From Cloeon dipterum (Eukaryota; Arthropoda; Insecta; Ephemeroptera; Baetidae): a stretch of 64,000 bases of DNA. Below are positions 3,691-25,800 of this stretch, piece by piece; positions within the stretch are counted from its first letter, which is position 1, and each line of letters begins with the position of its first letter. Below the pieces are notes generated by a model. That model had not been told where the DNA came from. It ran no database searches and saw only the letters and a program-made list of their open reading frames with translations. The translations under genes were made by a program, and so were the position numbers. Where the stretch lies: contig NC_088786.1 of the NCBI RefSeq assembly GCF_949628265.1, forward strand, positions 40,445,681 through 40,509,680. The letters are read 5' to 3'.

Positions 3691-4490
3691 CTGACCTGAG
3701 GAAGGTCACGGAAGGGTAAGAATCACAAATCGTTGAATGGTATCGCCAAATTAGTAAAAAAATCTTAAATTCCCGCCTTGAAGCGGATCTCAGGGTACGG
3801 GGTACCCTGAAAAAGGTCGTTTGAGCACCGCAGGTCAAAGCCATTCTAGAGACCTGTCCAATGAGGGGTCGTTATCGATGATTGGACGAGCAGCTGAATT
3901 AATACAAAAATTAAACAAATCTCGCCCGTATACATTGTGTCACGAAGCCGAAAAACGGAAAAAAATATTTTAATTTTTCTATGGGCACAAAAAACTTGAA
4001 AATTGGTTTTTTAGACCGGCGGCGGTCCTGCGCATGCGATGGAGTCGGTAAAATTCTCCAATTTTGTTGCGTTTGAAAAGAATGGCGAATTTTAAAGAAA
4101 GTGCAGAAATCGCATTTTTCAAACTTAAAAATCTATCTAGTCTTTGAATTTTGATCGGATCGGCTCCTAATTGATCTTAAAATGATGCTAGATAAATTTT
4201 GCGTCGATTGATGAGTCATTTCTTCGAATTTTCGCTCTGGATCGGACATCTGGCCGGCGGAAGTCGAAAAAATTAAATTGCTCGATAAAATCAACGGCTC
4301 GATCAACGTTGATAAAAATCCCACAAAATGCTCTTCATTCGATTCCAGTTGAAATGGCTTGGCGCCATATCCCGGAAAAATTAAATTTTTTGTTTTTAAA
4401 AATTTTTAAAATTTTGGCCGAAAATAATTCGTTACACGTTTCCCAAATATTTGACGCTTTTGTTATAAATTTGTATTTAAAAATGCTCAA
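3691..4490 (+). repeat. R1 interspersed repeat, copy 1
   Basis: Recognised by the blocks CCTGAGGAAGGTC, GGTACCCTGAAAAAGGTC, CAATGAGGGGTCG and GATTGGACGA, in the same order as in seven other copies in this window. No protein-coding frame runs through it. The class (MITE, SINE or Helitron-like) is not determined. Confidence 0.7.
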
Positions 4491-4529
4491 CTAGCTACAT
4501 AAATTTTTTTAAATTTATCTCCTCCTTTT

Positions 4530-4648
4530 TCAGTGGGAAAAATTGCTCATGCAGGATGGAATAAAGAGCAATGGCGCACAAAAAGCCAGACGGGACGTCG
4601 ACGTCAGTGTTTAGTGTTCGTACTTACACTTTTTCAGTGTTAGGATAA
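4530..4648 (+). promoter_or_regulatory. Probable promoter of lectin gene A, module shared by the paralogues
   Basis: The stretch before the start codon is conserved in front of several paralogues (for example 6935-7039 and 18700-18814). Common parts are TTTTTCAGTG, an ACGGGACGTCGG-like block in A, B and D, and TCAGTGTTAGG or TCACTGCCAGG a few bases before ATG. TCAGT resembles the arthropod initiator element, which would imply a very short 5' UTR. There is no clear TATA box. The transcription start is inferred. Confidence 0.35.
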
Positions 4649-5669
4649 ATGTCGGCCGTCGCGCTACTTTTCATAGTAACAACTAAAACATCAAAACTGT
4701 GATGGTGCATGTGAAATTTCAGGTTTCGTCCGCGGCGGCGGCGGCGGATTTTTCTGGATTTGATTGTGACTCGCCATATTTAAGGCATTCAAGAAAGGTA
4801 GAGGTCGCCGCTTGCATCGCCGATTGCTTGGATTTGGACTTTGAGGCGACGGAGAAAAATTGCAGCTACAACTTAAACACGGGAAAACTCATCTTGAAAT
4901 ACGAAAATGTAGGAATTCTGATCGAAAATTGGCGATTTTTTGAGTTTTTGAATACAGTTTCAGGAAGACGGATGTCCGAAATGCATTCTCGATAGGAAAA
5001 ATGTAAGAGTTAATTCGGAAGAATCAGTTTTTTACATTTGTTCGCAGTTCAAAGCGTACAAGTCAGCTTTAGGTTTTGGTAAGGGGCTTTGAAATTCTTT
5101 TAAAAACATTTTATACGCATACTATTTGGCAGTTTCGTTGATATCCTATTCGATGTGCGGTAAAAAGTTAGTTTTCGCAAACGTAGCAATTCCGGTGAGA
5201 AATACAAATTTTTAACCCTGTCGCACTTGACACGCTTTTAAAGACTGACTTCGACACGACAGGGATGATTTGCGGCATAATTTGGCCGATGTCGAAACAC
5301 TGGCTTCCGAAGGACTGGGACGATGTGCGCTGCGTCATCGAATCCCTGCGTGAGCCTCAAATTAAATTAATTAAAAATCTAATTTCCATATTCGCAGCGG
5401 AGGAAATTCAACGAGTGGGAAAATTGCGATTGGTTGCGTACCGAAGCAACTGCAGCAAGGAATTCTTCTTCTGCTCCACCGACACCCCGCGCTCGTTGCG
5501 AAAATCGTTTCTTTTCGAGGAGCTCAATAATCTAACACCACTGGCAACAAACAACGGCACGTGCGCCATTTTTGATTACAAAATAAAAAATAAGAAAGCT
5601 GTGGACGTCAAGCTCAGAGCCGCGGATTGCAAGGAAAAGTCTTTTGCTGTATGCGTGTCGGACGAGTGA
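4649..5669 (+). CDS. Lectin-like gene A: secreted C-type-lectin-domain protein
   Basis: Seven exons: 4649-4675, 4723-4908, 4964-5002, 5048-5078, 5133-5194, 5244-5349 and 5398-5669. They give 240 residues in consistent phase. A short hydrophobic start (MSAVALLFIVSSAAAA) looks like a signal peptide. Residues about 20-85 form a cysteine-rich region ([21 protein letters not shown]). The C-terminal part fits a C-type lectin fold by cysteine spacing: [56 protein letters not shown]. The calcium/sugar motifs EPN or QPD and WND are absent, so carbohydrate binding is not implied. Introns are 45-55 bases. A poly(A) signal AATAAA is at 5731-5736. Its closest relative in the window is gene C. The fold assignment is inference from pattern; the gene model is well supported by six paralogues with the same exon borders. 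Confidence 0.8.
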
Positions 5670-7039
5670 TTTGTTTTTATTTGCAGTTGAAATTCTGTGA
5701 CGAAAGAAAAATTGTAAAACATGCAGCCTGAATAAATTGTATGAATTTTTCCTGTGATTTGCGTATCTTGATTATTAGGGCTGTGAATTTCACACGATTG
5801 ACTGTTTTTTTATTAAAACTAAACTTAAAATCGTATAAAACCCCTTAAATATTGCAAAACATAATTTACTTATAATATATTGATAGCAAAATTGGTCAAA
5901 ACCAAATAAAACGTGACAATTTTGGGCATTTTTTTTCGCAATCTGACCCTCAGGGTAAGAACCCGAGGGTCGGAATCAACCTTCGGTGGTTCAATTTCGA
6001 TCGCCACAGTGCGTTGAGGTAAACGGAACACGCAATAAAATCGATGTTTGTTTAAATGACGATCACATTTTCTAATTAAAGGTCGTGCTCGATCCGGGTT
6101 TAAAACTTTTAAATTTTGATTGCCGTGAAACTGCCATTCTGAAAATTTGTTTTCTTGCACAGAATTTCACCGGCTACAATTTGACTTTGTTCCAGAAGAA
6201 ATCGATTTCTCGGAAGAGGTCTGAAAATGTGATCTTGACTTTTGACCTGCAACCTTTTCAGGGTAGGGAAAGTTGTTCAGGGTGAATTCTCATCGCAATC
6301 AAAAGTTGCAGTCCGACTTTGATTCTAAGAATTTAATTTTCTAGATTTTTGTAATTATGAAAAATTATGGAACGCACCATCTCGCCCGGGCCTCAAAATG
6401 TGGAATTACTCCATTTCCTAAAAAGGACTTAAACAGCGGGGTCCAGATGTGTGATAAAATTGGTTCGCACTGCGCAAATCCAAGATGGCGTCTGAGTGTT
6501 GGAAAGAAAAGGCTCGTTTTTGGATTGCCGTACGAGTGTCAAGAGTTTGTTTTTACGATCCAAAAGATACAATTAGTTAAGAGTAATGCAAATTATGTGT
6601 CAAAATATTGACCAAAACTTGCGCTTCTTTTGCGCATTTTTGCGTGCGCCATACTCCACCGGACGCCATATCTGCGCGTCGCACCAATCTGACCCCCGCT
6701 GGGTAAAACAATAACTTGCAAAAATTGTTATTTAATTAAAAAAATGCGAAGCTGTGGTATCTTTGGAGCCAAAGTTTGTAGACTTTCAAGGATTCTGCAT
6801 GCAGTTAGTATAATTTTCCTTTCTTGCAGTCGCGGAAGGGATTAAAGGATTAAAATCTCTGATCCATTCCCGAATTATTTAAAAATGGTCGACTTGCGTG
6901 AAAATGTTTGAAATTTGTCTCTCTTGCTTTTTCAGTGCGAAAAGTGCAGGCTGGAAATGGCTATGACGCAGTTTTTCACAAATAAAACAACTCAGACGGG
7001 ACGTCGGTGTTCACTTGCGAGTTTTATCACTGCCAGGAT
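5670..7039. other. Spacer lectin A-B, duplicated again between C and D
   Basis: Most of this spacer is homologous to 17892-18814 (for example CGTATCTTGATTATTAGGGC at 5762 and 17982, and the strip TGCGCGTCGCACCAATCTGA at 6675 and 18473). A block of about 445 bases (roughly 6084-6527) is present here but absent from the C-D spacer. I see no gene in it. Confidence 0.65.
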
Positions 7040-10000
7040 ATGTCGGCCGTCGCGCTACTTGTCCTGGTAACAACTAACTAACAACTAAACGTCGAAACTT
7101 TGATGCTGCATGTAAAATTTCAGGTTTTGTCCGCGGCGGCTTATTCTTCGCTTGATTGTGATTGCCCAGAGGACAGGCATTCGAGAAAGACATATGTCGC
7201 CGCTTGCATCGCCGATTGTTTGGATTTGGATTTTCCAGCAACGGAAAAAAATTGCAGTTACAATTCAAACACGGGAAAAGTCATCGTGAAATACGAAAAT
7301 GTAGAAATTCTGATGGAAAACAGGATCATATTCCAAGTTCTTGAACAGTTTCAGGAAGACGGATGTCCGAAATGCTACCTCGATTGGGAAAATGTATGAT
7401 TTATTTCGTTAGAATCAGTTATTGTATTTTTTTGCAGTTCAAAGTGTACAAGACAGCTACAGTAGGTTTTGGTAAGGGGCTTTGAAATTCTTTTAGAAAC
7501 CCGCATAAAAAAATATCACCTGAGAATGTTCTAAGAATATACCGACTTCGCCCAGGATTAATCTAAAAAATTAATTATATATGAACTTATGATACGGTTT
7601 TTCGTGATACTGGATTAATCTGTAGATTAATTTATGAGAATATTCTAAGAATGTTCCAGGATTATTCTGCCGGGCTTTGTTTCAAAAAGCTCTAAAGAAT
7701 GATCTTAGAACATTCTCAGAATATACTTATGGATTAATCTTGGGATTGATCTAGGATTCATATTTAGCGTATCAAATCTTAACTTTGTATTATTCTTTGA
7801 GGACAATCTTAGAATGTTCTTAGGTGATTCTAATATCATTTTAAGGTTAACATAGATTGTGACAAAAATTATCCCTAAATTATTCTTAAAATTACCCTCA
7901 GATTGTTCCTAGAATATTTCAAAATCTGTCATTACTATTACTGCGATATAATTGGGAATTATTTAAATAATTACAAACTTATTCAGTTGAATTTTTAAAA
8001 TTTATTTGTTTTTAATCATATCAGGTACACAATTTTCTCTCATTCGATGCCAGCACCGCCAATCTTGAAGCCCAAACTGCAGAACTTAAACGATTGTATC
8101 TTTTCCCGTCGTGCAAAACAGCTGCGGACGGCTTGAAGCTAAAAAAAGGGAGCGACTCGTAGAAAAAAATAAATAAAAGCTTTTTTCAATTAGCTGTGCT
8201 TGGAAAATGGAAGGTAGAAGTATGTCAAGTTCATGCATAATATTTTTCCATTTTCCATGCGAAGCCAATTGAATCAGAATGTGTAATAAAAATTCTCGTA
8301 AGCGTACAAAAAAGGCACCGCGATTTACATGGAAAAATTACATTTTTCCTCACCGATTTACAGTTTCCGCCACCCAAACTTATTTATGGGGTTCTAATTA
8401 AGAACATTAAGGACTGGAGAGGATCCCATATCAAAATATTGGTGGCAAAAACCGTACAAGTAGCGGCGAAAAGTGTAATTTTACAATAAAACCGTTGGAT
8501 TTCAAAGTTGCGCGATCTGTTCTAATTTCTTAGGACGCTAATCTATAAAATGGGACTTACCCTGTTGACCGCAAGATCCAGGCCATCCGTCCGAGTCCGC
8601 GGGACGTCCGTGTTGTCCCTTACTGGCGGCGTCCGGCGTCCTGCGTCCGTTAATAACTTTAACTTTGAACGGCGGTTGACCGTTGACGCGTTAGACAAAG
8701 AGAGCGAGGCAGGATTTTGTAAGTCTCTTCCCGCATAAAAAAATATAACCCAGGAATATCCGGAATAATCTTAGATTAATCAAAATTTACCCGAAAAAAT
8801 TAATCCAAAAAAATGATCCAGGATTAATCCTGTATTAATTGAGATTAATCTATGAATGTTTAAGATCAATCTAGAGATTCATCTAAAAAAATATTCTCAG
8901 ATTATTCTTTAGATCATTCTGAGATTAATCCAAAAAAATAATTTTTGGAATTTTCTTAGAATGAATCCAGATTAACCTTAAAATGTTTTAAAGTCAATCT
9001 AGAGATTAATTTACAAGAATATCCCTGGAATAATCCCAAAGGGGAAATTTGAATATAAGTTAATAGATTATCCCCAGATTATTCTATAGATCATTCTGAG
9101 ATTAATTCAAAATATTTTTTTAATTTTCCTAGAATATTCTTTAAAAACCCGAAAAGAGAAGAACTTAGATATTTTTCTTACAATTAAAAACACAAAATTA
9201 AATATGAAACATAATTTAATCAAGAAAATTAACTGCCATCTTGTTAAATAATATCACAAAAATATTTTTCTGGGAAATATTTTTTAATTAAGTCGATAAT
9301 TAAATTTTAATAATAAAACCTAAACCTTTTTCGCATTATCTAATACAAAATTATGATGCCTTTTTTCAAAGAAGCTGCCCAGATTAAAAAAGGTAAAAAA
9401 TCATAAATTCGATTGAATAATATAATTTCTTAACACAAGGAGTCTTAATTAATGCTACCGACAAACGTGCAAATTTGAATAAAAGGTCAGAAGTACAAAA
9501 AAGGGTTAAAAGGGCGATTTTAGTGTGCGCGTGGTAGCGGCGGCTGCACATGCATGTACGCACTTGCATGGAATGCCTGCTGCTGCTGCCTCTGTTGTGG
9601 AGCGGGGGAGCGGCGACGGGCGGTGGCAGCAGCAAGAGACTTACAAAATCCTGCCTCGCTCTCTTTGTCTAACGCGTCAACGGTCAACCGCCGTTCAAAG
9701 TTAAAGTTATTAACGGACGCAGGACGCCGGACGCCGCCAGTAAGGGACAACACGGACGTCCCGCGGACTCGGACGGATGGCCTGGATCTTGCGGTCAACA
9801 GGGTAAGTCCCATTTTATAGATTAGCGTCCTAAGAAATTAGAACAGATCGCGCAACTTTGAAATCCAACGGTTTTATTGTAAAATTACACTTTTCGCCGC
9901 TACTTGTACGGTTTTTTCCACCAATATTTTGATATGGGATCCTCTCCAGTCCTTAATGTTCTTAATTAGAACCCCATAAATAAGTTTGGGTGGCGGAAAC

Positions 10001-12325
10001 TGTAAATCGGTGAGGAAAAATGTAATTTTTCCATGTAAATCGCGGTGCCTTTTTTGTACGCTTACGAGAATTTTTATTACACATTCTGATTCAATTGGCT
10101 TCGCATGGAAAATGGAAAAATATTATGCATGAACTTGACATACTTCTACCTTCCATTTTCCAAGCACAGCTAATTGAAAAAAGCTTTTATTTATTTTTTT
10201 CTACGAGTCGCTCCCTTTTTTTAGCTTCAAGCCGTCCGCAGCTGTTTTGCACGACGGGAAAAGATACAATCGTTTAAGTTCTGCAGTTTGGGCTTCAAGA
10301 TTGGCGGTGCTGGCATCGAATGAGAGAAAATTGTGTACCTGATATGATTAAAAACAAATAAATTTTAAAAATTCAACTGAATAAGTTTGTAATTATTTAA
10401 ATAATTCCCAATTATATCGCAGTAATAGTAATGACAGATTTTGAAATATTCTAGGAACAATCTGAGGGTAATTTTAAGAATAACTTAGGGATAATTTTTG
10501 TCACAATCTATGTTAACCTTAAAATGATATTAGAATCACCTAAGAACATTCTAAGATTGTCCTCAAAGAATAATACAAAGTTAAGATTTGATACGCTAAA
10601 TATGAATCCTAGATCAATCCAAAGATTAATCCATAAGTATATTCTGAGAATGTTCTAAGATCATTCTTTAGAGCTTTTTGAAACAAAGCCCGGCAGAATA
10701 ATCCTGGAACATTCTTAGAATATTCTCATAAATTAATCTACAGATTAATCCAGTATCACGAAAAACCGTATCATAAGTTCATATATAATTAATTTTTTAG
10801 ATTAATCCTGGGCGAAGTCGGTATATTCTTAGAACATTCTCAGGTGATATTTTTTTATGCGGGTTGCTGCTGCCACCGCCCGTCGCCGCTCCCCCGCTCC
10901 ACAACAGAGGCAGCAGCAGCAGGCATTCCATGCAAGTGCGTGCATGCATGTGCAGCCGCCGCTACCACGCGCACACTAAAATCGCCCTTTTAACCCTTTT
11001 TTGTACTTCTGACCTTTTATTCAAATTTGCACGTTTGTCGGTAGCATTAATTAAGACTCCTTGTGTTAAGAAATTATATTATTCAATCGAATTTATGATT
11101 TTTTACCTTTTTTAATCTGGGCAGCTTCTTTGAAAAAAGGCATCATAATTTTGTATTAGATAATGCGAAAAAGGTTTAGGTTTTATTATTAAAATTTAAT
11201 TATCGACTTAATTAAAAAATATTTCCCAGAAAAATATTTTTGTGATATTATTTAACAAGATGGCAGTTAATTTTCTTGATTAAATTATGTTTCATATTTA
11301 ATTTTGTGTTTTTAATTGTAAGAAAAATATCTAAGTTCTTCTCTTTTCGGGTTTTTAAAGAATATTCTAGGAAAATTAAAAAAATATTTTGAATTAATCT
11401 CAGAATGATCCATAGAATAATCTGGGGATAATCTATTAACTTATATTCAAATTTCCCCTTTGGGATTATTCCAGGGATATTCTTGTAAATTAATCTCTAG
11501 ATTGACTTTAAAACATTTTAAGGTTAATCTGGATTCATTCTAAGAAAATTCCAAAAATTATTTTTTTGGATTAATCTCAGAATGATCTAAAGAATAATCT
11601 GAGAATATTTTTTTAGATTAATCTCTAGATTGATCTTAAACATTCATAGATTAATCTCAATTAATACAGGATTAATCCTGGATCATTTTTTTGGATTAAT
11701 TTTTTCGGGTAAATTTTGATTAATCTAAGATTATTCCGGATATTCCTGGGTTATATTTTTTTATGCGGGAACATTTCTTACGCATAATTTTAGTTCAAAT
11801 GGTGTCTCGTGCGATGTGTGGTAAAAATATCTCTTTCGGAAACGTACCAACTGCGGTAAAAATAACAATTGTCAACCCTCTCTCGCATTGAAACGCTTTT
11901 AAAGGGTGACTACGACGTTGGAGCTATGCTTTGCGGAATACTTTGGCCCTCGGAGCGACACTGGCTTCCCAAGGAGTGGGACGAGGTGCGCTGCGTCATC
12001 GAATCCCTGCGTAAAAGCCTCAAATTAAAAATAAAACAACCGGATAATTTCCTAATTCGCAGCCGAAGGTCTTCAACGATTAGGAAAGATGCGATTGGTG
12101 GCGTACAGAAGCAGCTGCAGCAAAGAATTCTTCTTCTGCACCACCGACACCCCTCGCTCGTTGCGAAAATCGTTTCTTTTCGAAGAGCTCAATATTAACC
12201 AAACATTGGCAACAAACGACGGCACGTGCGCCCTTTTTGACTTCAAAATTAAAAACAAGAAAGCTGAGGACGTCAAGCTCAGAGCTACCGATTGCAAGGA
12301 AAAAGCTTTTGTTATATGCGAGTAA
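7040..12325 (+). CDS. Lectin-like gene B, with a 4.3-kb transposon-filled intron 4
   Basis: Seven exons: 7040-7066, 7124-7300, 7355-7393, 7438-7471, 11794-11855, 11905-12010 and 12063-12325. They give 235 residues. The signal-like start is [15 protein letters not shown]. The cysteine plan is the same as in gene A (CIADC, KNCSYN, DGCPKC, then the lectin-like half MCGKNISFG to DCKEKAFVICE). Intron 4 is 4322 bases instead of about 50-60 because a nested pair of terminal-inverted-repeat elements sits in it (7500-11769). Both splice sites and the phase across the insertion are intact, so the gene may still be functional; I see no premature stop. The nearest paralogue is gene D (same [20 protein letters not shown]). 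Confidence 0.78.
7500..11769 (+). mobile_element. Outer copy of a 2134-bp TIR element, split by a second copy of itself
   Basis: The ends are CCCGCATAAAAAAATAT at 7500 and its inverted repeat ending TTATGCGGG at 11769. The dinucleotide AA flanks both sides (7498-7499 and 11770-11771); comparison with the uninterrupted introns of the paralogues supports AA as a 2-bp target duplication. Removing the inner copy and its TT duplication leaves 2134 bp. Both ends are packed with short motifs such as GATTAATC and TTAGAATGTTCT; the middle has GC-rich patches. No transposase frame is present, so it is non-autonomous. I cannot name the superfamily. Confidence 0.85.
8730..10863 (-). mobile_element. Inner copy of the same TIR element, inverted, inserted in the outer copy
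   Basis: This copy starts CCCGCATAAAAAAATATAAC at 8730 and ends TTATGCGGG at 10863. It is flanked by TT on both sides (8728-8729 and 10864-10865), a 2-bp target duplication inside the outer copy. It is 2134 bp, the same length as the reconstructed outer copy, and reads in the opposite direction. Sampled stretches differ at only isolated bases, so both copies look recent. Small frames in it are repeated identically in the outer copy and have no recognisable domain. Confidence 0.85.
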
Positions 12326-13854: not shown

Positions 13855-16800
13855 TCAGATGGCGTTTTTGTGGGCGCGCTTCATGTGCGTCTTGAGGTTG
13901 CCGTTCTGCGTAAACAGTTTGCTACACAGTTCGCAGCGGTGTTTGCGTTCGCCCGTGTGCGTCAGGATGTGCGCGTCGAGCGCGTTTTTCTGGTTGAACC
14001 TTTTCGCGCACAGGGTGCACGGGAAGGGCTTCTCGCCGCTGTGGATTCGCGCGTGCCGCACCAGCTGGCTCGGCTTGTTGAACGACTTGCCACACACCAG
14101 ACACACCTGAAACAAAATCAATCGTTAATGCCGCGAAAAAAGGTCAGACGGACATTTTCACCAACCGACCGCAATTTGAGCCGAGTTGGGACAGTTTTAC
14201 CAATGCCCAAAATGTCCATTGGACATTGTACCGCGGCATGAACGAAAATCATACCTTTCCGTCGGGCTCTGGCGGCTTAGCGGCCGTCTCGAGGCTGGCG
14301 GCGCCGATTTCGCCGATGAGCTGCTGTCCCGAGATGTCCGAGAAGACCTCGAAGCGGATGAACCCGTCGGCATCGGAAGGGTAGAGGATGAAGTTGCCGG
14401 AATGCACCTGCTGGATGAGGTTCTCGTCGATGTGCAGGTACTCGGAGGACTCCAGGTTGATCGGAATGTTGATCTGCGCGTCGTTGGCCTCCTGCTCAGG
14501 GTGCAGCGCCGACACCGCCTCCTCCACCTCCATGGCGCCCTCGGCCGCCGCCTCCGGCTCCTCGGCGATCGCGGGCAGGCTTGTTGCAGCAAAGTCCACG
14601 ACGGCGATGGTCGACGCCGCGTTTTTCTTGGACTTGTGCACTGACAGCACGTGCGCCTTCCTGTGCCCTGACGTGCGGAAGCTCAGCGGACAGTGCGGAC
14701 ACTTCATCGGTCTTGCACCTTGTTAATTGCATTAAATAACAAATTAATCTTTTTATATTGTTTTTTTACCTGTGTGTATGCGCATGTGCACCCTGAGCGA
14801 GCCTTTGGTGGAGAACCTGGCCTGGCAGATGTGGCACGGCAGGCCGGGCGTCGCGCTTTTCTTGTGCACCGCGCAGTGAGCGACCAGGGTGGAGCGCACG
14901 GCGAACGCCTTTCCGCACACCGCGCACTCGAATGGCTTTTCGCCTGGATAAAAATTTAATTTAAACGAAGAGGGGAATCAAATCGAGGGGCTACCTGTGT
15001 GAGTGCGCAAGTGTCTGGTCAGATCGGACGGCTTCTTGAAGCTTTTCGAGCAGAGGTGGCAGCCGTTGGCGTGCCGGACGTTCGAGCCGTCCTGCTCGTG
15101 CTTGGAAACGGTTCTTTCCTCAGGTTCTTCGTCCGTTTTCAGGCCAACTTCCTTTAAGCTTTGAAGGAATGCGTTTTCGGACACTGATGGTCTTGGACAA
15201 CTCTCCAAAGACTGCAAAAATCCGAATTTAAAAAAAATGAATAGAAAAATTGATAGAAATGGGTGGCAAGTATGAATCAAATGTTTGTGACGCGGAAATT
15301 TGGCCCATCGTCCGCCCCACCCATTTTTACAACTCTTCGGAGTGAAGTTGATACTCGGAGAGGTCTGCCTCATGGAGCGAACTTCGATCCGATCAGCTGA
15401 CTCGTGTGCGCGATGTGGAGGGATATAAAAGGTGGGCGGGGCGATCGATCGGCCAAATTTCCGCGGCACGAAAGTGAAAAATGCGATCTGAACCTTGGCC
15501 ATGGTGTGCGCCTCTTCGACCGTGAGCCTCCTGGCATTATTTTCCTTCTTAACCAGCAAGGAAGGCGCCTCGTCCGTCGCAGCTTTCTCGGCCTCTGGCG
15601 GCGGAGGGGGAAAATGCGCGGCACTCTTCAAAATGGACCGGTTGTGCACTTTGTTCATGTGGCCCTGCAGCTGCTTTGGACTCTTGAACACGGCGTTGCA
15701 GTGCTTGCACTTCAGCCTAAAATAAATAATTATTTAATTTTTAAAATGAAAGTGGATCAGGACGCACATTTTGGAAGGCGAGGTTGGTTTCTCGTGCTCG
15801 GAGGTGACGTGCAGTTTCAGGTCCTTTTCAGTCTCGAATTTGGCCTGGCAGAGTTGGCAAGGCAAAGAGTGTTCCTCCGCGAAGTGCATTTTGTACGTCT
15901 CGTTGTCCATGAAAATCTTCTTGCAAATGTCACACCTGAGTGAGGGAAATTTTAATACTCCAGGTAAAAAAAAACTTAAATTTAAATCCTTACGAGAACT
16001 GGGCGAGATCTTCCTGCGCATTTTCCGGCGCAGAGGTGGACGCGAGCATCTTGGTCAGGGCGCCGATTTCGATTTGATCCGTCTGAAGGATTAATTATTA
16101 TATTAAAATTTATTTGGATTTTTTAAAATTACCTGAATCGGAATGCCGGCGTTGAAGAAGGTTGCGTCCAGCGTTTGGCCGTCGAAACCCTGGATGAACA
16201 CGCCGGACTCGACGGGCACCAGCCCTTGGCCGCCGGACACGCCAGGCTGGTCCAAAATTGAGTATTCTTCGATGGACTGTGGAAAAAATATTTTAAATAG
16301 GGGTTTCTTTATTTTTAAAAAAATTACTCTTTGGATTCCGTGCAAAACGTTTTGCTTGGCGATCAGGTTGAGCTGCAAATCGCCAGAAATGCTGGCGACG
16401 TTCGCGTTGATCAGCTGAGGAATTGCTTCGGCCACGGCTTTCGAGCTCAGCGTGTCCGTGATGGTGATTTTCTCAGGGGCAACCACGTTCTCCTGAAATT
16501 ATAACGTCCAAAATTATTGTTTAATTCTCCAGAATTAAATTAAAAATAATTAAACTCTAAGGAGCAACAGGAAATTAATTTACGAAAATCCCCCGTGTGT
16601 CCAAAGTTTCTAGACTCTTAAGGATTTTGTAGTTTGCATAATTTCATTTGAATTAAAGTCAAAGTTCCAGTCTAGTCTAATCCATTCCCCGATTATTTGC
16701 TAAATATTTTAAAGTTTTCCACTTTGATTAATATATTTCAGTGGGAAAATTGCTCATCGTGCAGAATGGAAAGGGCAGTGACGCGAATTTTTATAAATCA

Positions 16801-19800
16801 AATCAGATGCTGGGACGCCAATGTCAGTGTGCTCACTTGCGCGAGTTTAATCGTTGTCAGGATGTTGGCCGTCGCGCTAGTTTTCATAGTAAAATCGAGC
16901 GTAGCCATTGAAAGTGCATCACGCCGCACGTTCTAAACTAAAATTTCAGGTTTCGTCCGCGGCAGCGGCGGATTTTTCTGGATTTGATTGTGACTCGCCA
17001 GATTTAAGGCATTCAAGAAAGGTAGATGTCGCCGCTTGCATCGCCGATTGCTTGGATTTGGATTTTGAGGCGACCAAAAATTGCAGCTACAATTCTCAGA
17101 CCGGAAAAGCCATCGTGAAATACGAGAATGTAGGATTTCTGATTGAAAATGGGCGATTTTTTGAGTTTTTGAATACAGTTTCAGGAAGACGGATGTCCAA
17201 AGTGCTTTCTCGATAGGAAAAATGTATGATTTATTTCGGAAGAATCTATTTTGTAATTTTTTCGCAGTTCAAAGTGTACAAGGCAGCTATTGATATAAGT
17301 TTGGCCGATTTTAATTCTTTTAAAGACATTTTAAATAACGTATACTTTAAGATCCAGTGGTATCCCGTCTGGTTTGCGGAAAAAAGATCGTTTTCGCAAA
17401 CATAGCAATTCCGGTAAAAATACAAAAAATTTTCAACCCTCTCCCGTTGATTAAGAGACACCCTTCAAGTGCGACTACGACATGGCGGCAATGCTTTGCG
17501 GAATAATTTGGCAATCGGAGCGACACTGGCTTCCGAAAGACTTTGACGAGGTGCGATGCATCATCGAAACCTTGCGTATAAGCCTCGAATTAAATTCATT
17601 ATAAATCTAATTTTCTTAATCGCAGCCGAAAGTATTCAACGGATAGGAAAATTGCGATTGGTGGCGTACAGAAGCAGCTGCAGCAAGGAATTCTTCTTCT
17701 GCACCACCGACACGCCGCGCTCGTTACGAAAATCGTTCTTGTTCGAGGAGCTGAATAACCAAACATTGGCACCGAACGCAACGTGCGCCCTTTTTGACTT
17801 CAAAGTAAAAAATAAGAAGGCTGTCGACGTCAGTCTCAGAGCCACGGATTGCAAGGAAAAGGCTTATACTGTGTGCGAGTTGGAAGAGTGATATTTTTTT
17901 GCAGTTGAAGTTCTCTGACGAAAGAAAAATTGTAAAACATGCAGCCTGAATAAATTGAACGAAAATTTTCCTGTGATTGCGTATCTTGATTATTAGGGCT
18001 GTCAATTTCAGACGATTGGCTATTGTTTTTTATTTAAACCAAACTTAAAATCGTATAAAATCCCTAAATAGTGCAAAAAATAAGTTTCTCATGCCGTGTA
18101 TAATATCGAAAACAAAATTTGAATTGTGATGGGCCAAAACCAAATAAAACGACACTAAACATGAGAATTTTGGGTATTTTTTCTCAATCTGGCCCTCAGG
18201 GTAAGAACCTGAGGGACGGAATCAACCTTTGGTGGTTCAATTTCGATCGCCACAGTGCCTTGAAGTAAACGGAACACGGAAGAATCGATTTTTTTTTTAA
18301 ATGACGATCACATTTTTAGTTAAAGGTACGAGTGTCACGAGTTTGTTTTTCCGATCCAACCAAAAGACACAATTAGTTCAATTAATGCAAACTACACGTC
18401 ACAATATTGACCAAAACTTGCTTCCACGAGACAATTTTTTCGCGCCATACTCTCCACCGGAGGCCATATCTGCGCGTCGCACCAATCTGACCCCCGCTGG
18501 GTAAAACAAAATTTTATTAAATTAAAAAAAATGCGAAGCTCTGGTAACTTTGGAGCCAAAGTTTCTAGACTCTCAAAGATTTTGTAGTTTGTATAATTTT
18601 CCTTTATTCCAGTCGCGGAAGGGATTAAAGAAATAAAATCTCTGATCCATTATTTAAAAATGCTCAACTTGCGTGAAAATGTTTGAAATTTGTCTCTCTT
18701 GCTTTTTCAGTGTGAAAATTGCAGGCTGGAAATGGCTATGACGCAGTTTTTCACAAATAAAACAACCCAGACGGGACGTCGGTGTTCACTTGCGAGTTTT
18801 GTCACTGCCAGGATATGTCGGCCGTCGCGCTACTTGTCCTGGTAACAACTAACTAACAACTAAACGTCGAAACTTTGATGCTGCATGTAAAATTTCAGGT
18901 TTTGTCCGCGGCGGCTTATTCTTCGCTTGATTGTGATTGCCCAGAGGACAGACATTCGAGAAAGGCATATGTCGCCGCTTGCATCGCAGATTGTTTGGAT
19001 TTGGATTTTGAAGCAACGGAGAAAAATTGCAGTTACAACTCAAACACGGGAAAAGTCATCGTGAAATATGAAAATGTAGGATTTCTGATTGAAAATTGGG
19101 GATGTTATTGAGTTCTTGAACAGTTTCAGGAAGACGGATGTCCAAAATGCTTCCTCGATTGGAAAAATGTATGATTTATTTCGGAAGCGAATCAGTTTTG
19201 TAATTTTTTTGCAGTCCCAAGTGTACAAGGCAGCTGCTGGTTTCGGTAAAGCGGTTTCAAATTCTTTTTGAAACATTTTATACGTAGTCCTTTAGCTACT
19301 TTGGTGTACCGTACGATTTGTGGCAAAAAGATCGTTTTCGGAAACGTAGCACTTTCGGTAAAAATAGAAATTGTCAACCGTCTCGCACTTGACACACTTT
19401 TTAAAGGCCGACTACGACATGGGAGCTATGCTTTGCGGAATAGTTTGGCCCTCGGAGCGACACTGGCTCCCGAAGGACTGGGACGAGGTGCGCTGCATCA
19501 TCGAATCCTTGCGTAGGCCTCAAATTAAACACTGGAAATCGGATAATTTCCTTGTTCGCAGCACAAGATCTTCAAAGATTGGCAAAATTGCGATTGGTAG
19601 CGTACAGAAGCAGCTGCAGTCAGGAATTCTTCTTCTGCACCACCGACACCCCGCGCTCGTTGCGAAAATCGTTCCTCTCAGAAGAGCTCGATAACCAAAC
19701 ACTGGACACAAACGACGCCACGTGCGCCCTTTTTGACTTCAAAATTAAAAACAAGAAAGCTGTGGACGTCAGGCTCAGAGCCACCGATTGCAAGGAAAAG

Positions 19801-22800
19801 GCTTTTATTATATGCGAGTTAGACGAGTGATACGTTTTTATTTGCAGTTGACTAAAACGAGATTTGTTTGAAATTCTCTGAAGAAAGAAAAATTGTAATA
19901 TACAGTCTGAATAAATTACATGAATATTTTTCTGTATGTGACTGCCTGTTTTTATTATGGAAGTGAAGGTTTTCTTGAAAAAAAAATTAAAGAAATAAAA
20001 ATGCGAATTAAAACGCACGTTGCTTTGGTGCGCAAAACGTTTGAATCTTTTTTTATGCTACTGCGCATGCGTGCCTCCTTCAAAGTCACAGCTGTCTCTT
20101 CTCAGCAAGAAGCATGGCTGTGACGTCAGAAGGGAGACGCATGCGCAGAAGCAACGAAAAGATTCAAACGTTTCGCGCGCCAAAGTAGCGCGCGATTTTC
20201 TTTGCGCCTCTTTTCGCACGTCAAAACACGTTTTTCGACCTGAAAATTAATTAACCCTACCTATTTTGACCCTCGGGAATCGATTGGAAGCTAACATAAA
20301 TGTGGATTTTGTGAGTCATTAAAATTTCTCAACTTGCCTGATAAAATTTTAATTTCGTCTCTTGATTTAATGAGTGGAAAAATCGTCACGCAGGATGCTA
20401 TGACGCAGATTGTCAAAATCGAAACATAAATCAGATGAGACCCGGCAGTGTCGGTGTTGGCCTGCGAGTTTTGTCAGTGTTAGGATGGCGGCCGTCGCGC
20501 TACTTTTCCTAGTAACAACAACTAAACATCAAAACTGTGCAACACGGGATCAAATTTCAGGTTTCGTCCGTGGCGGCTTATACTGCTCTTGATTGTGATG
20601 TGCCAGAGTACAGGCATTCGAGAAAGGCAGACGTCGCCGCTTGCGTTGCTAAATGCTTGGATTTGGATTTTCAGCCAGCGAAAAACTGCAGCTACAATTC
20701 AAACACGGGAAAAGTCGTCGTGAAATACGAAAATGTAGGATTTCTCATGGAAAATTGGGATTTTATTGTGAGTTCTTGAACAGTTTCAGGGAGACGGATG
20801 TCCAAAGTGCTTTCTCGATAGGAAAAATGTATGATTTATTTAAAAATAATCAATTTTGTAATTTTCTTTTTAGTTCCAAGTGTACAAGTCAGCTGTTGGA
20901 TTATGTAAAGGGGTCGGGAATTCTTGAAAAATATTTAAAATTCATTTTTTTAGTCCCTTTGGTAACCCATCCGGTGTGTGGAAAAAAGATCGATTACGGA
21001 AAAGTGGCAATTCCGGTAAAAATACAAATTCTCATCCATCTCCCGTTGATTAAGAGGCACCCTTTTAGTCCGACTACGACATGGCAGGAATGATTTGCGG
21101 GATAATTTGGCCCTCGGAGCGACACTGGCTCCCGAAGGACTGGGACGAGGTGCGCTGCGTCATCGAAACGCTCCGTAAGCCTCGAATGAAACTCATAATA
21201 AATCTAATTTCCATATTCGCAGCGGAAGAAATTCAGCGAATAGGAAAATTGCGATTTGTAGCGTACAGAAGCAGCTGCAGTCAGGAATTCTTCTTCTGCA
21301 CCACCGACACCCCGCGCTCGTTGCGAAAATCGTTCTTGTTCGAGGAGCTGAATAACCAAACATTGGCACCGAACGGAACGTGCGCCATTTTTGACTTTAA
21401 AATTAAAAATAAGAGGGCTGTGGACGTCAATGTCAGAGCCGCGGATTGCAAGGAAAAGGCCTTTGCTGTGTGCGAGTTAGACGTGTAACAAAAGTTTGTA
21501 CTAGCAGTTCACTTAAATGATTGAAGAAAGAAAATTTAAAATAAATAATGAATATTTTTTTCAGTGATTGCGTATCTTGATTATGGAAGTGCAAAGGGTT
21601 CATCTTAAAAAAATGCAAAGATGGTTTTGTGAAATTCTTCAACTTGTTTTAGCAAAATGAAAACGTACAAACAACTTGCTGGGGAAATAAATAAAAACTG
21701 TAAAAGACCTACAAATTTGTGCGTTCCAATCGATTCCTAAGGGTCGGAATAGTTTCAACCCTCAGGAATCAAACGAAAATGTGGTTTTAGTGGGTCATTA
21801 AAAATTGTCAACTTGCGTCATGTAATTTAAACTTCATCTCTTCATTTATTGAGTGGAAAAATCTTGACGCAGGATGCTATTGCTATGACGCAGTTTTTCA
21901 CAAATCAGGTGGGGGCATCAGTGTTTGCCTGCGAGTTTTTTCAGTGTTAGAATGTCGGCCGTCGCGCTACTTGTCCTGGTAACAACTAACTAAACATCGA
22001 AACTGTGATGGTGCTTGTAAAATTTCAGGTTTCGTCCGCGGCGGCTTATTCTTCACTAGGTTGTGATTCACCAAAAGAAAGACATTCAAGAAAGGTAGAT
22101 GTCGCCGCTTGCGTTGCTCAATGCTTGGATTTGGATTTTGAAGCGACGGATAAAAACTGCAGCTACAATTCAAACACGGGAAAAGCCATCGTGAAATACG
22201 AAAATGTAGGAATTCTGATCGAATATTGGGGATGTTATTGAGTTCTTGAACAGTTTCAGAAAGACGGATGTCCGAAATGCATTCTCGATTGGAAAAATGT
22301 ATGATTTATTTTGAAAAAAAAAAATGACTTCATTAATATGCATTTTAGTTCCAAGTGTTCAAGACAGCTGCTGGTTTATGTAAGAGTGTTTGAAATTCTT
22401 TAAATATAAAACATTTTACAGGTATAATTTTAGTTCCATTGGTAACGAGCTCGGTGTGTGGAAAAAGGATCGATTACGGAAAAGTAGCAATTCCGGTAAG
22501 AAATAAAAAATTTCAACCCTCTCCCGTTGATTAAGAGGCACCCTTCAAGTCTGACTACGACATGGCAGGAATGAGTTGCGGGATAATTTGGCCCTTGGAG
22601 CGACACTGGCTCCCGAAGGACTGGGACGAGGTGCGCTGCGTTATCGAAACCCTCCGTAAGCCTCGAAATAAATTCATTATCAATCTAATTTTCCTAATCG
22701 CAGCGGAAGAAATTCAACGATTAGGAAAATTGCGATTTGTAGCGTACAGAAGCAGCTGCAGCAAGGAATTTTTCTTCTGCACCACCGACACGCCGCGCTC

Positions 22801-25800
22801 GTTACGAAAATCTTTCCTTTTCGAAGAGTTCAAGAACCAAACATTGGCAACAAATGGAACGTGCGCCCTTTTTGACTTCAAAGTTAAAAACAAGAAGGCT
22901 GTGGACGTCAGGCTCAGAGCCGCGGATTGCAAGGAAAAGGCTTTTACTGTGTGCGAGTTAGTCGTGTGATTCAGTTGAGTAAAATAATAATATTCCAATT
23001 CTCTGATGGAAAAATTGTAATAGAGCCCGAAAAAATTAAATGAAAATTTATTTCTCAAAGTGATTGCTTGTCTTGATTATGGAATTAAGTTATCCTTCAT
23101 TTTTTTTCCAAATGCGAAAGGTGGTCAAAACGTTTGAATATATTGGTCACTACTGCGCACGCGTCACCCCACCCTTCTGACGTCACAGCTATTCTTCGTG
23201 CAGCTGACTGAGAGAGCTGTGACGTCAGAGGGGTGACGCGTGCGCAATAGTAACCAAAAGATTAAAACATTTATCGCGCCGAAGCAACGTGTGTTTCGAT
23301 TTGCGACACTAACTAAAATTGTTTGACCCACCTTTTTTGACCCTCAGAAATCAATTGGAACATACGAAAATTATTTAACTGCTTTTAGAAAAATACCATA
23401 TATTAAAAATTGACAAGAAGTGTTTTCAGATGTTCCAATTTCTTTGATTTTTATTTTCAAAAGTCTGCTATTAGCTCATCTGCATTTTTGGAGAAAATCC
23501 TAGAAACGACATTTAAGTCTTTGTCTTGACAAATTGTTGGTTTGACGCCAACTGAAAATGTATTAATTCCGAATTTTCTTGATTAACTGTGTTGTGCCCA
23601 TGACGACAGCTTAAGCCGGTAGAGAAAATAAATAAACATTTCGACTGTCTCTCTTTTTTGCGTCATTGGTGGCCTGATTTGATACTTGTGGACGGTGAAA
23701 ATCATTCGGAAGTTGGAAGCAAGCGTCATCACTCGTCATCAGGATGTCGGTCGGCACACTAGGTTTCGTTGTAGCTCCGAAACGTCCAAATTTTGGTCCA
23801 TACAAGCTGAGTTTGAAAATTTGCAGGTTTTGATTGGAATTACATCTGGATCTGTGGACGATTTTGGTTGCAATCTGCCGAAGAAAATTCATTCGAGAAG
23901 AGTAGACGTGACCGTTTGCATAGCCGACTGCTTGGATTTGGATTTTCAACCAACGGGGAATTGCAGTTTCGATTCCAGAACGGGGCAACTTGATGTGAAA
24001 TACGAAAACGTAAACGAGTTTTGATAGAAAACCAGGATATTGTATATTTTTTGGGCAGTTTCAAAAAGACGGATGTCCGAAATGCTCCCTCGATTGGAAA
24101 AATGTATTTTTTTTAGACGTTGAAAAATTAGTTTCATATTCAAAAAAAATTAATTGCAGCTCCAAACCTACAAACTAGGGTCTAGCTTGGGTGAGGCGAC
24201 TAAAAGTTAACTGAACAAAGAATTCTCATCCGTTTTTTTTTCAGTTCCATTGCGTACGCATCCGATCTGTGGGAAGAACATAAATTTCGGACACATGGCA
24301 ATAGGGGTAAGTAAATTGAAAGTGGAATTAAAGTCTGAATTTTTGTAAAATGCCCCCAAGAAGACCAATCAGAGGAAGGAGAGCGACTGCAGCTCTCTGA
24401 TTGGCTGTTTTGCGTAGCGACGGCAGCGCCGCAACGAGTCACGTGACGTAAACCAGCCAATCAGAGTGCCGCAGCCGCTCTCCTTTCTCTGATTGGTCGC
24501 CAGAGGTCACGTGGCACTCATCGCTAATAAACTTTTGACTTCTAACGCCCTGAAAAGACCGAATACGACATGGCATCGATGTTTTGCGGCTTAGTTTATC
24601 CGTTAGAGAGACAATGGCTTCCGAGAAACTGGGACGAGGTGCGGTGCGTCATCGAAGCATTGCGTTAGTTTCCAAAAATCCGTAAAAACGGCTTGAAAAT
24701 TAACGAAAAATCGCAGCCGAAGCCATTCAGCGATTGGGAAAGTTGCGAGTGATGGTGTACAAGAGCGATTGCAGCGCCGATTTCTTCTTCTGCGCCACAG
24801 ACACCCCCCGCTCGCTACGGAATTCGTTTCTCTCAGAGCTTGAAAAAAACGAAACGACATTTCCGGATGGAACGTGTGCCATCTTTGATTTTAAAATTCA
24901 GCGAAAGAAAGCCGTGGACGTCCAGCTCAGGGTGACGGACTGCAAGGAAAAGGCTTTCGCCGTGTGCGAACGGGACGCTTGAAACGTATGTTTGAAAATA
25001 AAAATAAAAAAAGAAGTCGATCATGAGCAGCAGAGAGAAATTTCATCCAACTAAATACCCGAATTTGAATTTTCCTGTTGCATTAAGTTTGAAATAATCC
25101 TACCTGGACCTGAACGGCGTATTTGGCCATGACGGGCTGCGCGAAAGGGTTGTTTTGCGTGTTGATGACCGAGAGGGAGCGCTGCTGCTCGACGGCGTTG
25201 ACCAATTCGACGACGTTCTGCGTCTGTCCGCCGGCCAGCGCGTCGTCCTTGGTGACCAGCACGGCGGCCTTGACGTTGCGCTTGCTGCGCTCGTGGTTGT
25301 TGATCACCTCGCGGGCGTGCGTCTTGATGTGCTGCCGGCACGCCGACGAGTACGAGAACGGCCGCTCGCAGTACGGACAGATGTACGATTTCTGCGACGA
25401 GTGGCTCAACATGTGCCTTTTCAGACACCCCTGAAATTTCAAATTTGTTCCGAAATGATGCAACAGTTAAAAAAATTCCGACAGTCCGTTGACCAAAAGA
25501 CTGAAATATAACCGCAATTAAAAAAACAATCCTCAGGTAGCATGACCTGAGGAAGGTCGGTTACAGGCAAGGATGAAAATCTTCGCCAAGTAACGTCAAA
25601 TGTGATCAAATGTACCAATAAAGCATTAAAATCCGGCCTCGAAGCGGATCTCAGGTCGGGGTACCCTGAAAAAGGTCATCAGGGTATCGCAAGTAAAAGC
25701 CCAATTAAAGACATGTCTAATGGGGGGTCTTGGTTGACGATCGGATGTACGGCTGAATTTTAATTAAATAAAACCATTTTTTTAAATTTTGACTTTTTCG

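Follow-up and report, generated by a model that had tools for sequence, protein, structure and literature searches.

A tandemly duplicated gene of the ephemeropteran Cloeon dipterum carries, inside one of its introns, a transposon into which a complete and inverted member of the same transposon family has inserted. The locus is part of a stretch of 64,000 nucleotides (contig NC_088786.1, positions 40,445,681 to 40,509,680, assembly GCF_949628265.1), hereafter the window, to which all coordinates given without a contig handle refer. Both copies represent a 2134-bp element that is a non-coding, non-autonomous transposon with terminal inverted repeats (TIRs); the longest listed open reading frame starting with ATG, GTG or TTG and lying wholly within the inner copy comprises 97 amino acids.

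The architecture (Table 1) confirms that, within the intron, one member of the family has inserted in inverted orientation into another. Once the two parts of the outer element are joined, a sequence of exactly 2134 bp is obtained, and the reverse complement of the inner element is exactly as long and differs from the outer copy at 6 positions (99.7% identity). The 17-bp TIR CCCGCATAAAAAAATAT matches exactly at all four ends of the nested pair, and each element is flanked by its own 2-bp target site duplication (TSD), AA for the outer and TT for the inner element. These features agree with the original prediction, which from the letters alone had proposed two near-identical copies in the order A-B-A'-B', creating two overlapping inverted repeats of about 1.2 and 0.9 kb. 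The inverted arms measure 1240 nt for the left halves (7495-8734/9629-10868) and 921 nt for the right halves (8728-9648/10851-11771).

That a paralogue would provide the empty site has likewise been borne out, as the stretch at 18583-19918, 87% identical, aligns free of gaps across the insertion point and is devoid of the insert; once the flanks of the insertion are joined, they can likewise be aligned with the paralogues at 4474, 16759, 20319 and 21798.

The most probable history, in which we place considerable confidence as a whole, would begin with the insertion of a 2134-bp non-autonomous cut-and-paste transposon into a 50-nt intron of the tandemly duplicated host gene. A second member of the subfamily, most likely of another lineage with a sister on contig C2, would later have inserted in inverted orientation into the middle of the outer element. 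A transposase acting in trans from another locus probably mobilised both copies, and an open frame at locus L060 on contig C5 is a candidate for it. Of this account, the structure, the TSDs and the empty site are demonstrated, while the donor and the mechanism are inferred. The nesting is genuine and of young age, although events of this kind are already known.

Table 1. Parts of the nested insertion and of its host gene (window coordinates)
Feature	Position	Strand	Remark
Outer element, left part	7500..8729	+	element positions 1-1230; last 2 bases are the target TT
Inner element, complete, 2134 bp, inverted	8730..10863	-	sister copy at C2:9196059 ff.
Outer element, right part	10866..11769	+	element positions 1231-2134
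Outer TSD AA, left copy	7498..7499	.	
Outer TSD AA, right copy	11770..11771	.	empty-site paralogue
Inner TSD TT, left copy	8728..8729	.	
Inner TSD TT, right copy	10864..10865	.	
TIR, outer left end	7500..7516	+	
TIR, inner right end (element inverted)	8730..8746	+	
TIR, inner left end (element inverted)	10847..10863	-	
TIR, outer right end	11753..11769	-	
Host intron	7472..11793	+	4322 nt; 50 nt minus both elements; GT...AG, borders inferred
Upstream host exons, inferred	7040-7066, 7124-7393, 7438-7471 (within 7040..7471)	+	
Downstream host exons, inferred	11794-11855, 11905-12010, 12063-12325 (within 11794..12325)	+	

Lineage of the inner copy

The original prediction had the transposon inserting a copy into itself, of which the inverted insertion within one family stands, whereas the derivation from the outer copy is not favoured, as the inner copy is nearer to the copy at C2:9196059 and following, with 2 differences, both in the left TIR of that C2 copy itself, than to the outer copy with its 6. 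Near relatives were compared in a set of seven near-identical copies including the inner, the outer and the C2 copy, within an alignment of 38 copies that consists of the outer copy and 37 from the 40 best-scored genome matches; the alignment is restricted to the places thus scored and leaves aside L042, a copy of 15.5 kb, and L045, neither of which has a joined right end there. At element positions 947, 1307, 1776 and 1984 the variant letter occurs, among the 38 copies, only in the inner and the C2 copy, and an exact genome-wide search places the 1984 allele at just these two copies. At position 380 the inner and the C2 copy have a letter that recurs in 10 of the 31 copies outside the near-identical set, and at position 243 the outer copy alone differs. 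The inner and C2 copies thus agree at all six sites, with five shared variant alleles and one site at which only the outer copy deviates. Since these alleles are shared with the C2 copy and the 1984 allele is found at two places only, the inner copy likely stems from a lineage other than that of the outer copy, and most likely, judged by these shared letters, another member of the same young subfamily landed in the outer element.

The strongest competitor, although unlikely, is that a copy of the outer element, for example from the sister chromatid, inserted into the outer element, changed thereafter and later seeded the C2 copy. The near-identity of the two nested copies would suit such an origin, and the alleles of the inner copy could indeed postdate the landing of an outer-derived copy, with the C2 copy descending from it; this order of events is less likely, as besides the distribution of the alleles described above it needs five changes in the inner against one in the outer copy. 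Local hopping would also fit an excess of family members close to each other. While 0.03 nested pairs are expected for 76 randomly placed copies, randomisation of the 81 places of the family in bins of 1-45 Mb gives 0.04-0.08 nested pairs versus 1 observed and 0.11-0.26 pairs within 3.4 kb versus 3 observed; of the 3000 shuffles run for each bin size, no more than 0.3% reached three or more near pairs. Because the threshold of 3.4 kb was picked after the pairs had been seen and the numbers are small, this excess is modest at most. At L011 and L035, the family forms two back-to-back inverted pairs, 1174 and 166 bp apart, and one partner in each is without a matching TSD, as rearranged or aberrant insertions might be.

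An assembly artefact, in which two independent loci or haplotypes have been wrongly joined, is conceivable for near-identical repeats of such kind, for which mis-joins are possible, but is very improbable here, as the TSDs are perfect at both levels, the empty site is clean, the host frame is open on both sides and the sequence across the left junction 8729/8730 occurs only once in the genome. A simple duplication during assembly is at odds with the different alleles of the two copies, five of those of the inner copy recurring at a third locus. Autointegration, the suicidal insertion of a single excised element into itself that is known for Sleeping Beauty, piggyBac and mariner, can practically be dismissed, as its products described in an excerpt of PMC3952818 are deletion circles or inversions of one element and not two full elements with differing alleles.

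The transposon family and its candidate transposase

Across the 190-Mb genome, 148 exact matches to the TIR are found versus 0 for the pattern read backwards, which served as control, and an exact 2-bp TSD accompanies 31 of the 38 aligned copies (TA 15, TT/AA 11, CA/TG 3, AT 1, CT 1), which together argue that the element is more than a chance pattern; TA is the favoured TSD. Typed by the bases that follow the TIR, the exact ends comprise 76 right and 72 left ends, which combine to 67 pairs, 63 of them spanning 2125-2298 bp. With 14 unpaired ends, four of which are right ends of a second subfamily of about 2.0 kb, the family thus occupies about 81 places. Among the loci considered in the search for a transposase, L045, L049, L050, L051, L052, L053 and L057 align only partially to the 2134-bp element; open frames were read at L045 and L049.

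There is no sign that the composite has moved as a unit. Left-left stretches shorter than 6 kb do not recur among the 148 exact ends, and the only further right-right stretches, of 4.4 and 5.5 kb, represent the back-to-back pairs; the 3.3-kb and 3.0-kb spacings of like ends seen in the composite are likewise found nowhere else among these ends. In the openly licensed PubMed Central literature, searched without the organism name, neither the nested family nor the locus was recognised.

Individual copies are of interest in their own right. The left family end at L045 stops at element position 992 and adjoins an open frame of 344 codons which, by eye only, has the look of a C2H2 zinc-finger protein. 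The copy at L032 is broken at element positions of about 1305-1867 by an insert of about 560 bp of another family, the halves of which appear nearly palindromic by eye. A copy of the 2.1-kb type at C1:13708933-13724424 (L047-L048-L042) holds a Merlin-like insertion of about 13.3 kb with the 8-bp duplication GGATTTTG; two pieces of IS1595-type transposase therein match PF12762 below the cut-off, and long tandem arrays of 142-bp and 154-bp units are found inside. As its interior is this insertion with its own 8-bp duplication and inverted ends, the 15,492-bp element was rejected as the autonomous partner.

An alternative end, CCCGCGTAGAAAAATTTAG, is present at seven places in the genome. Six of them (L054, L055, L056, L058, L059 and L061, one copy being interrupted) constitute the second subfamily, likewise non-autonomous and about 2.0 kb long, which combines the L060-type end with the right 1.3 kb of the 2134-bp element (positions 808-2134). 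At the seventh place, L060 (C5:29291904-29294048), the end CCCGCGTAG adjoins an open frame of 715 codons from stop to stop (711 from the first ATG), which we take to resemble tnp2-type transposases. A genome search with this frame yielded 26 matches, with only L060 itself at full identity, one match of 47% with two internal stops and more distant ones of 25-33%; six short matches of 71-74% over residues 681-715 correspond to the six copies of the 2.0-kb subfamily. The left end of the 2134-bp element aligns with the L060 end with a score of 31, whereas none of 500 shuffles scored above -10.

With respect to the superfamily, Tc1/mariner elements, the TSD of which is strictly TA, were rejected as TA is found in only 15 of the 38 copies. 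ISL2EU elements of the PHIS superfamily share the 2-bp TSD and the AT-rich target, but were rejected as well, since, according to an extract of PMC4482050, their TSD is AT within A|AT|T and their TIRs usually start with GG, in contrast to a single AT among the 38 copies and a TIR starting with CCC here. Merlin, for which the same extract gives a TSD of 8-9 bp (PMC4482050), is incompatible with the 2-bp TSD. Comparable in part is the CMC/CMCT assemblage (EnSpm, Mirage, Chapaev, ESTA, Plavaka), described in PMC12730594 as having mostly CA..TG ends, TSDs of 2-5 bp and, between the second D and the last E, a C(2)C and an H(3-4)H string; CMC-type cases with a 2-bp TSD are reported in a section of PMC6004678. 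The TSD of the family falls into this range, and the L060 frame contains strings of this form, CEHC (C(2)C) at residue 326, HADVRH (H(4)H) at residue 362 and a further H(3)H at residue 531. The 715-codon frame is the best transposase candidate, tentatively CMC/EnSpm-like and not filed as a member.

Several observations weigh against this assignment or the account as a whole. Seven of the 38 copies are without an exact TSD, and the element ends are 5'-CC..GG-3', unlike the CA..TG of most CMCT elements. Pfam Transposase_21 reaches 10.5 bits with the L060 frame at a cut-off of 28.6 (E 0.34) and is outscored by the unrelated, equally sub-cut-off Med31 (E 0.00075) and RPAP3_C (E 0.01); a genome search with Transposase_21 (PF02992) found nothing, and no control gave a signal either. 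The candidate autonomous element is known from its L060 end only. The right end of the 2134-bp element also aligns with the L060 end (score 8, without shuffles) and its own two ends align with each other (score 17), so that resemblance of the ends is by itself no proof that a single enzyme serves them.

Host gene, predicted RNA duplex and relation to double Ds

With exon borders set by a GT-AG reading, the spliced host frame starts at 7040 and has no stop before the terminal one at 12323-12325. The host gene is tandemly duplicated, with five other long paralogous stretches in the window (4474-5736, 16759-17954, 18583-19918, 20319-21485 and 21798-23048) besides two shorter ones (23890-24107 and 24561-24957). 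In three paralogues (5265-5669, 21081-21488 and 22562-22969) the putative short intron between the last two exons is readable in frame. The designation of the host gene as a lectin gene found no support in sequence searches, as Pfam gave no match for five open reading frames, the spliced host protein or six C-terminal strings, and a PDB sequence search gave none for the spliced protein; a PDB search with a profile returned two unconvincing matches (E 0.28 and 0.61). Scans of the window for tRNAs and with Rfam found nothing.

The predicted minimum-energy fold of the intron is -2685 kcal/mol, compared to -910 to -925 kcal/mol in three mononucleotide shuffles, and contains 1226 pairs between the left halves, with the right halves folding on themselves. 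If transcribed, the intron RNA could plausibly form a long duplex by pairing of either the two left or the two right halves. The proposed extensive double-stranded RNA is retained in this restricted sense; because the repeats are interleaved, the duplexes of 1240 and 921 bp are mutually exclusive as nested hairpins. Splicing may well be impaired where a hairpin-forming intron of 4.3 kb has replaced one of 50 nt.

The closest known counterpart is the double Ds of maize, in which one Ds is inserted in inverted orientation into another Ds. As there, a complete non-autonomous element resides inside an element of the same family, inverted, with its own TSD and with four intact ends. Ac/Ds differs, according to an excerpt of PMC3260210, by its 8-bp TSD and 11-bp TIR, compared to 2 and 17 bp here. 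The same paper regards Ds-type nesting as rarer, probably since nested Ds elements acquire chromosome-breaking properties, and lists one Ds-l4 nested in Ds-l3, with no chromosome-breaking double Ds detected in B73 (PMC3260210). That the present pair is a non-plant counterpart of double Ds, a young four-ended composite at which a CMC-like transposase and atypical CCCGC ends could lead to aberrant transposition and breakage, and whose duplex would give rise to small RNAs silencing the family, is a decidedly improbable scenario. Apart from this question of breakage and silencing, the locus represents ordinary transposon biology; as a young natural case of nesting with an adjacent empty-site paralogue in a compact genome, it could serve to test chromosome breakage or silencing.

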